NCBI GenBank assembly: GCA_017416465.1
Contig: JAFQCK010000161.1
Coordinates: forward strand, 1-55,819
DNA length: 55,819 nucleotides
Origin: Lachnospiraceae bacterium
Lineage (GTDB): Bacteria; Bacillota; Clostridia; Lachnospirales; Lachnospiraceae
Direction of reading: 5' to 3'
The translations under genes were made by a program, and so were the position numbers. The notes under the pieces are model-generated. The model was given only the letters and a program-made list of their open reading frames with translations. It did no database searches and was not told where the DNA came from. Below are positions 174 through 1,668 of the stretch, piece by piece (the first letter of the stretch is position 1; each line of letters begins with the position of its first letter).

Positions 174-446
174 TTAAAAATCATTCATAAAAAATTCTCT
201 TACATAATCTTCTGAAACATTAAATTCTTTAACTATACTCTCAAAAATTTCCTTATCTTCAACATTAAATTTTTTTGATAAATTAATATATGCCAATATA
301 CCTTCTTTTCTTCCTTCTTCTCTTCCGTCTTTTCTTCCTTCTGTTCTTCCTTCTTTTCTTCCTTCTCTCACACCTTCTCTTCTACCTTCTTCTATCCCCT
401 CGTTCCTAATAGTCTTTGCAGGATGGTCTAATATCTTTCCGCCCAT
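174..446 (-). CDS. Possible intragenic C-terminal product of the Rpn gene
   Basis: An in-frame ATG at 446 (MGGKILDH) is preceded by AAGGAG at 458-463, 11 nt away. Initiation here would give a 90-residue protein holding only the EGRK repeat and C-terminal helices. The same MGGKIL sequence sits at the start of the separate gene at 1238-1489, so the boundary coincides with a natural domain border. E. coli Rpn genes are reported to make such intragenic C-terminal proteins (RpnS) that inhibit the nuclease. Expression here is an inference; the spacing is longer than ideal. Confidence 0.4.
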   Translation of the reverse strand: MGGKILDHPAKTIRNEGIEEGRREGVREGRKEGRTEGRKDGREEGRKEGILAYINLSKKFNVEDKEIFESIVKEFNVSEDYVREFFMNDF

Positions 447-1190
447 AATCTCACTCACTCCTTTTTTTATATTTTTATACTTATCAGCCAAATTATTAAC
501 TACCATTTTTGTAAGTTCAAAAAGTGTAATTTTGGTATATTCATCAATAAATGCTTGTTCATGTAATGAATCCAAACCATTAACTATTTTTTTATATGTA
601 TTCATCAATTCTTCATATTTTTTTACATTATTATCAATTATATTTAATTCCGACTCATAATTAAATATATAAAATGGTATTAAAAATAATAACCTCTTAC
701 AAAATATAGACTCTATATCATAATTTCTAATCTTTAAAATAGGTATATTATGTATTTGATTTCCATCAGATGTTTTAATGCATATTTTTAACATATCTGT
801 AGTATTATTATAACTTCTTAAATATATTATTGCTGACATCGGAAAATTCACATATAATGTTTCGTCATATAATTCATAATTATTGCGTGCAATCTGTGAA
901 TCATATTCATACATTCTTATCATTATACTTCCATCAACTTTACTTTGACATTCTAAATGATAATTCTTCTCAAATTCTAAACTTCGTATAGCAAACGAAG
1001 TATCAGTTATTCTCTTTTGTATATTCTTCTGTTGCTTCAATAAAATCTCGTTCTGTTTTAAAATTACGTCTTCGTCGCCTTCATAATTACACTTAAAAAT
1101 CTCATTAACTAACGGAATCAACAAATATTTACAATCATTTATAAGTGTTCTAAAAACGTCATCATAAATCGTATTACTTATGTTTTTCAC
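174..1190 (-). CDS. Rpn-family PD-(D/E)XK nuclease
   Basis: The 338-residue product resembles the recombination-promoting nuclease (Rpn) / PD-(D/E)XK nuclease-transposase family. D63 in ITDTSF and the E80-C-Q82 motif in YHLECQSK fit the family catalytic core. Residues about 1-240 are the nuclease part. Residues 249-300 carry a charged four-residue EGRK-type repeat, and a short helical end similar to KEFNVSEDYVREF follows. The start is GTG with AAGGGA just upstream. Rpn proteins are DNA endonucleases linked in E. coli to recombination and phage defence; substrate here is unknown. A shorter gene copying only its C-terminal part lies 47 bp upstream in the same direction. An internal ATG at 446 could give a separate C-terminal protein. 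Confidence 0.85.
   Translation of the reverse strand: MKNISNTIYDDVFRTLINDCKYLLIPLVNEIFKCNYEGDEDVILKQNEILLKQQKNIQKRITDTSFAIRSLEFEKNYHLECQSKVDGSIMIRMYEYDSQIARNNYELYDETLYVNFPMSAIIYLRSYNNTTDMLKICIKTSDGNQIHNIPILKIRNYDIESIFCKRLLFLIPFYIFNYESELNIIDNNVKKYEELMNTYKKIVNGLDSLHEQAFIDEYTKITLFELTKMVVNNLADKYKNIKKGVSEIMGGKILDHPAKTIRNEGIEEGRREGVREGRKEGRTEGRKDGREEGRKEGILAYINLSKKFNVEDKEIFESIVKEFNVSEDYVREFFMNDF
290..412 (-). repeat. 12-bp degenerate tandem repeat coding EGRK units
   Basis: About nine degenerate 12-bp units of the type GAAGGAAGAAAA encode E-G-R-K, E-G-R-T, E-G-R-K, D-G-R-E and so on. Gain or loss of a unit keeps the reading frame, so it would change linker length rather than switch the gene off. 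A similar but shorter array lies at about 1360-1432 in the neighbouring gene. Confidence 0.75.
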
Positions 1191-1237
1191 CTTTCCCTTA
1201 TCATTTCTAATTTATTTATCCAAATTTCTTCATCATC

Positions 1238-1489
1238 TCAAGTTCTCTTTAAAAACGTTTTTGCATATTCTTCTGATACCTTAAATTCTTTAACTATCTC
1301 ATCAACAATTTCATTATAATCAATATTTAATTTTTTAGCTAATTTTATAAAAGCCTGTATTCCTATTTTTTGCCCTTCTTTTTGCCCTTCTTTTCGTCCT
1401 TCTTTTTGCCCTTCTCTCCGTCCTTCTTCAATCCCCTCATTTCTAATAGTCTTAGCTGCATGTTCCAATATCTTTCCACCCATATCCAT
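1238..1489 (-). CDS. Stand-alone Rpn C-terminal-domain protein, putative antitoxin or remnant
   Basis: The 83-residue product matches only the C-terminal part of the downstream nuclease: MGGKIL-x-H-x-AKTIRNEGIEEGRREG, the EGRK/EGQK repeat, then a helical end with KEFKVSEEYAKTFL. It has its own Shine-Dalgarno AAGGAG five nt before the ATG at 1489. Over the first 25 shared codons from MGG, eight codons differ silently and only two change the residue. That suggests selection on the protein rather than decay. No nuclease residues are present. By analogy with E. coli RpnS it may bind and restrain the nuclease. The alternative is a 5'-truncated pseudogene from tandem duplication; the intact start signal argues against that. 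Confidence 0.6.
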   Translation of the reverse strand: MDMGGKILEHAAKTIRNEGIEEGRREGQKEGRKEGQKEGQKIGIQAFIKLAKKLNIDYNEIVDEIVKEFKVSEEYAKTFLKRT

Positions 1490-1520
1490 ACCATCTCCTT
1501 TTCAATGTTATATTTTTAAT

Positions 1521-1549
1521 AAAAAATGAGAAGCACAAGCTTCCCATTT
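1521..1549 (-). terminator. Terminator downstream of apt
   Basis: An 11-bp stem with one G-U pair (1524-1534 with 1539-1549, 4-nt loop) is followed on the minus strand by TTTTTTATT. It lies between the apt stop and the small Rpn-like gene, so it separates the two transcription units. Confidence 0.65.
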
Positions 1550-1668
1550 ACTCCTTTAAATCAATAACACAAACATTGGATATCTTGTAATTATACAATA
1601 TCACATAACTCCTGTATTGTCAATTTATTATTTAACATTTTTATTTGTTGTATTTTTGTTATTATATT

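Follow-up and report, generated by a model that had tools for sequence, protein, structure and literature searches.

The window, the whole stretch of 55,819 nucleotides that was analysed, is contig C153 of a fragmented Lachnospiraceae assembly (3.7 Mb in 172 contigs, 89.5% complete, 5.0% contamination), and the contig fits the genus, since its apt gene is 63–85% identical to those of seven genus relatives. Two genes lie 3' of apt on the (-) strand. The first, at 1238..1489, is a stand-alone tail gene with an RpnS-like product of 83 aa, recognised from the list of open reading frames and a protein match within its own genome. The second, at 174..1190, starts with GTG and encodes a full-length Rpn-type, RpnL-like predicted nuclease of 338 aa, assigned from its reading frame, a profile match and a motif. 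An earlier note on this DNA had placed the short gene first in a two-gene unit; the order is correct, and a scan detected no terminator-like site in the 47-nt gap between the genes (1191..1237, (-) strand). The ribosome site which that note gave to the short gene is present as the Shine-Dalgarno (SD) sequence AAAAGGAG at 1495..1502 on the (-) strand, 5 nt before ATG 1489, with an in-frame TGA just upstream. ATG 1483 is a second in-frame start and corresponds to the MGG with which the nuclease tail begins.

Upstream of the unit, a promoter-like TTGACA-17-TATTGT is located at 1595..1623 ((-) strand), a consensus match only and of a kind found 11 times against 13.9 expected in shuffles. Downstream of it, between apt and the stand-alone gene, the scan detected a terminator-like hairpin at 1524..1549 ((-) strand), terminator-like sites being found twice against 0.3 expected. 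This hairpin lies ∼20 nt before the stand-alone SD and may terminate the apt transcript or, alternatively, belong to an attenuator-like leader. At 71–108 a near-perfect inverted repeat, followed by a T-rich run on the (-) strand, was read from the sequence; it is the likely terminator of the rpn unit and is absent from the output of the terminator scan.

The short gene had been described as a separate copy of the repeat-plus-tail region of the nuclease, and homology at both the protein and DNA level bears this out. In a protein search of its own genome the short protein matched nuclease residues 243–334 with 64% identity (E 1.5e-25), the closest relative seen, four other tails of the same genome being 32–35% identical and 14 further tails at most 48%. 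DNA homology extends from 1518 to 1216, matching 477 to 152 with 71.6% identity (E 1.8e-49). On the (-) strand the homologous segment of the stand-alone copy (1216..1518) thus runs from ∼16 nt upstream of the SD to 22 nt past the stop and takes in the SD, the tail and 3' flank beyond both stop codons; within the ∼22 nt of homologous flank, AAATTTGGATAA occurs at an equal distance past the stop codon in both genes. Remnants of a nuclease half 5' of the short gene were considered and rejected, the best DNA match having an E of 0.13. At E up to 1, no match of the stand-alone protein to DUF4351 (PF14261) was listed; matches to NCBIfam FliH and Pfam Yae1_N fall in the charged repeat region and are spurious. 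Phage and plasmid records contain no match to the short protein at an E of 0.01, and a single match was observed among viral contigs (L155, 43% over query residues 16–57). PADLOC gave no match at E 0.1. On sequence grounds the short gene is a real stand-alone RpnS-type gene, and it is probably translated into protein.

Placement of the neighbouring product in the PD-(D/E)XK superfamily is by motif. Its own TIGR01784 score is below the cut-off (17.8 against 52.1 bits), none of the Pfam models for Rpn-type nucleases matches it and a PDB sequence search returned nothing better than E 0.07. Of the 31 members of the family alignment, 16 reach an E of 0.01 or better against TIGR01784, the best being 1.2e-9, and hhalign against 13 TIGR01784-type proteins gives a probability of 87% (E 4e-6) with the D, E and Q of the D..E.Q motif aligned; comparison of profiles with four E. 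coli Rpn proteins reaches a probability of 58% only. Among the 31 aligned sequences D63 and E80 are invariant and Q82 is nearly so. We call the window protein a divergent Rpn-type (COG5464/TIGR01784) nuclease, with both activity and fold predicted.

Within the nuclease gene, an internal ATG at 446 opens a reading frame for an RpnS-like tail of 90 aa (174..446, (-) strand), marked by a conserved start methionine and preceded by the SD sequence AAAAAAGGAG (458..467, (-) strand), which was identified from the sequence and a test of SD conservation. This methionine is present in 95 of the 96 full-length sequences in the alignment. Where those 95 sequences have a glycine encoded within the SD, 51 of 67 codons are GGA, which accounts for 38% of glycines in the remainder of these genes. 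The SD match averages 6.09 bases, whereas 500 synonymous shuffles average 5.01, with no mean above 5.39, and 517 other internal ATGs used as a control average 3.42; these statistics treat the 95 sequences as unrelated, ignoring kinship. The claim that the internal start has been retained in the nuclease thus holds, and the start at 446 looks real, with an SD that appears to be conserved beyond amino-acid need.

A related layout has been published by Zhong et al. 2023 (PMC10327210) for RpnL/RpnS of E. coli and C. difficile: a nuclease gene with internal SD and start giving a C-terminal protein, variable four-residue repeats in the first tail helix and the D/E/Q motif of the Rpn superfamily. By computation, this gene-within-gene layout extends to the branch of the window protein (Clostridia and Selenomonadaceae records), which differs from RpnL/RpnS in missing the TIGR01784 cut-off and in lacking a match to the Pfam Rpn-type nuclease models. 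Among toxins whose genes also contain the coding sequence of the antitoxin, Rpn systems are a recent case. In E. coli, RpnS inhibits RpnL and is made either within rpn or from a separate gene (PMC10327210). The latter is represented by ypaA next to rpnE, the protein of which has been detected, and by a second rpnS copy adjacent to rpnC (PMC10327210), so that this kind of gene is already known from published work. As in the window, these genes (ypaA, a copy of rpnE-S, and the second rpnC-S copy) adjoin a full gene and differ from its tail in length. They lie 3' of the full gene, however, whereas the window copy lies 5'; ypaA begins right after the rpnE stop codon, and in the second rpnC copy a new N-terminus replaces the internal start. 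The window gene is accordingly for the most part of a type already described, its position relative to the full gene being the rarer feature. Among the matches listed in a literature search, only PMC10327210 concerns RpnS by title and abstract, and the portion of its text used here does not comment on separate copies that differ from their neighbours in repeat number and mentions no copy 5' of a full gene, although its Dataset S1 may contain such cases.

The tails of both window genes contain 12-nt (four-residue) repeats, a pattern with 18 occurrences in the window compared with a mean of 2.9 and a maximum of 7 in shuffles, 13 of the 18 falling in the short gene and the nuclease gene. A hand count from the shared RN to A[YF]I gives nine units for the nuclease tail (298..401, (-) strand, RN to AYI) and seven for the stand-alone gene (1371..1438, (-) strand), and the tail alignment has a corresponding 8-residue gap. 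Repeats of variable number soon after the internal start are thus found in the window branch as well. The variation bears on function, as one additional repeat in RpnC-S is reported to abolish inhibition of RpnC-L and equal numbers to restore it (PMC10327210), a rule for which the published test used over-expression and a single protein, RpnC. By this rule the window pair, with seven and nine units, is unmatched. None of the 25 distinct pairs compared, of which 12 are from outside E. coli and 13 from within it, has tails of equal length. Besides the window pair, the 11 pairs from outside E. coli always differ by a multiple of four residues; one of these loci (L132) was mis-anchored in the alignment (n=1) and its one-repeat difference was read by eye, and another (L110) also has an end extension.

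Mismatch was equally prevalent in E. coli. Among 15 strains with rpnE (K-12 and 14 of 15 hits picked among the matches listed, 60 of 5371 records), seven distinct rpnE/ypaA pairs were obtained and none is equal, the inserted units in RpnE and YpaA being (0,1), (5,1), (5,2), (1,4), (8,4), (5,0) and (6,2). In one E. coli locus (L180) ypaA is cut by the locus end after the repeats, and another (L178) has no separate copy. The latter, from strain F5656C1, has a single rpnE with a YpaA-like tail end, as if both genes had recombined into one. Similarly, the second rpnC tail in eight strains, picked among the matches listed (60 of 5390) for a second copy or its place, gave six distinct length pairs with none equal; in some the difference is not a multiple of four and derives from a two-residue deletion. 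The useful new point of this analysis is that separate tail genes, among them ypaA in the E. coli strains examined, are not matched to their neighbours in repeat number, which raises the question of whether YpaA acts on its own RpnE at all.

Mismatch is not proof that matching is avoided, a reading which we rejected. As a control, repeat number differs in 15 of 17 close pairs of full-length genes and in 50 of 61 less close pairs, so that plain turnover is sufficient to account for the mismatch; zero length matches in 12 pairs has a probability of ∼0.1–0.2 under plain turnover. Because the full-length tails differ as well, tail lengths appear to drift freely, with the separate copies giving no sign of matching and no clear sign of avoidance. 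Close paralogs in the genome of the window, on contigs C112 and C124, are three repeats apart.

These observations bear on the proposal, raised in the earlier note, that the inhibitor has become its own gene. A separate RpnS-type gene is indeed present, but its role as inhibitor of the neighbour is placed in doubt by the seven and nine repeats and by the lack of matching in separate copies generally. The corresponding explanation, a trans-acting antitoxin of the neighbour in an antitoxin-first toxin-antitoxin operon, would account for the common strand, the 47-nt gap, the first position of the antitoxin-type domain, its strong SD and the protein head that is nearly identical in both copies, and it agrees with inhibition of RpnL by RpnS in E. 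coli (PMC10327210). Nevertheless, the published test requires equal repeat numbers (PMC10327210), none of the 25 pairs is of equal length and the nuclease already has an internal start of its own. Nor was the pair found elsewhere in the genus: two of the eight other genomes match the nuclease at E 0.001 or better, none of these matches being a pair, and in the seven of the eight in which the apt locus was found the apt contig has no nuclease match at that threshold. We consider this explanation unlikely; the short gene is probably not a matched antitoxin of its neighbour, with the qualification that the repeat rule derives from one protein.

The search for a short tail gene beside rpn in further genomes, suggested earlier, gave 10 pairs in two collection samples, all with the tail gene 3', but no pair in the eight other genomes of the genus. 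The two samples comprised 142 loci with 100 complete rpn ORFs; the loci were drawn by similarity and frequencies are valid for these samples only. In addition to the 10 separate tail ORFs within 600 nt 3' of an rpn gene, 15 tail ORFs had no complete rpn within 600 nt, some of these being split genes. In the family-search sample (87 loci, 69 complete rpn ORFs), six loci have a tail ORF 3' and none 5', with three tail ORFs lacking a complete rpn within 600 nt; in the named-genome sample (55 loci, 31 complete rpn ORFs), the corresponding values are four, none and 12, several of the 12 representing split genes. A tail gene 5' of the full gene was therefore observed in the window only, in these samples and in its own genome, where four complete rpn copies were found. 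In one locus (L111, which overlaps L032 and was counted once) a longer, partly truncated copy lies 5' of the full gene; L111 and L096b retain nuclease residues and were counted as pairs, not as stand-alone ORFs. Two loci, L059, with a tail of a different kind that is cut short, and L154, with a neighbour cut by the contig end, are outside the pair table. After a simple tandem duplication of the 3' end, the copy would lie 3' of the full gene; to reach the order seen in the window, the entire gene would have to be duplicated and the first copy to lose its nuclease half, or a transfer would be required.

An SD match of at least 5 bases precedes the shared M in 23 of 26 tail ORFs, the window included. 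Of 26 tail ORFs that no contig edge truncates, 11 have an in-frame stop located at most 15 codons before that M, and two gave no M with the motif pattern. In two different genomes (L054:3986 and L059:4190) the same junction was observed, in which the SD of the tail copy starts at the stop of the preceding gene (TAAGGAG), resembling ypaA after rpnE in E. coli.

Selection on the copies was estimated from dN/dS, as had been proposed. Over the first 25 codons the window pair has two replacement differences, as previously counted, and nine silent ones, not eight. Purifying selection, claimed from these counts, is supported by a dN/dS of 0.27 over 81 codons (bootstrap 0.13–0.52) but not by the last 42 codons, in which dN/dS is 0.81 (0.36–2.6) and constraint is not clear. 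Outside E. coli, the pooled dN/dS for the 11 informative of 12 pairs is 0.25 (bootstrap over pairs 0.19–0.30), or 0.22 without the window pair, two of the pooled pairs (L096a and L096b) sharing one full gene; free drift of one copy would be expected to give at least ∼0.5. Single pairs range from 0.09 to 0.59, L079 being at 0.59 and L126 at 0.42. E. coli pairs were kept out of the pool. The seven rpnE/ypaA pairs have values of 0.15–0.24 and the six rpnC pairs 0.33–0.95, and since four of the six exceed 0.5, the E. coli rpnC copies may be loosely constrained. Taken together, the non-E. coli copies appear to be under constraint at the protein level; for the window gene itself the evidence of constraint is suggestive and not closed.

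If the short gene were a decaying remnant, an old tandem rpn copy that has lost its nuclease half and has no function, translated or not, then the value of 0.81 in the window tail, the high values of four of the six rpnC pairs and the failure to find the pair in the eight other genomes of the genus would be explained. In these genomes rpn genes are often split, with N and C parts in different ORFs (L051, L062, L128), and several rpn matches contain internal stops. A remnant is nonetheless difficult to reconcile with the open frame and intact SD, with the pooled dN/dS of 0.25 outside E. coli, with translation of the E. coli counterpart ypaA (PMC10327210) or with the in-frame stop or homology break found close 5' of the SD in many copies, not all of which are independent, L054 and L059 sharing one junction. 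We regard this explanation as rather improbable.

The reading that we favour, with modest confidence, is that the short gene is an RpnS-type duplicate of the neighbouring rpn, probably translated but not pairing well with its neighbour, and that the nuclease has its own antitoxin. Duplication of the neighbouring rpn gene, or of a close allele, with loss of the nuclease domain would have left a copy consisting of the tail with its internal SD and part of the 3' flank. Translated from its own SD, the copy would yield a small protein that may dimerise through the repeat helix, by analogy with what is published for RpnA-S, while the nuclease would keep its built-in antitoxin through the internal start at 446. 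We infer that the short protein, having two repeats fewer than the nuclease tail, would pair poorly with its neighbour and would instead pair with itself or bind Rpn nucleases of other repeat length. Separate tail copies recur outside E. coli and appear constrained as proteins there. A broader suggestion, which we hold to be doubtful, is that stand-alone RpnS genes form a recurrent selected class with a function other than restraining the adjacent nuclease; kept at a differing repeat length, they would block, as non-cognate antidotes, incoming or paralogous Rpn nucleases of other repeat numbers, or would titrate the built-in antitoxin. Two other Rpn nucleases of the window genome, on C112 and C16, have a seven-unit spacing like the short protein (hand count, gapless alignment), although their tails are only 32–33% identical to it.

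The window genome (G000) contains many rpn genes or pieces, which fall into two branches and are distributed over contigs C112, C16, C124, C147, C106, C100 (L002–L006, L008), C97, C31, C122, C158, C168 and C80. C100 and C106 were considered as further stand-alone pieces and rejected, as both run to a contig end. At one locus (L070:2988-4249) a nuclease domain has no tail and a separate tail ORF follows 234 nt later. Another (L096, G269:C2) combines, in 9.5 kb, two tail copies with an array of three full rpn genes and one more ORF whose tail is related; no two of the copies and full genes have tails of equal length.
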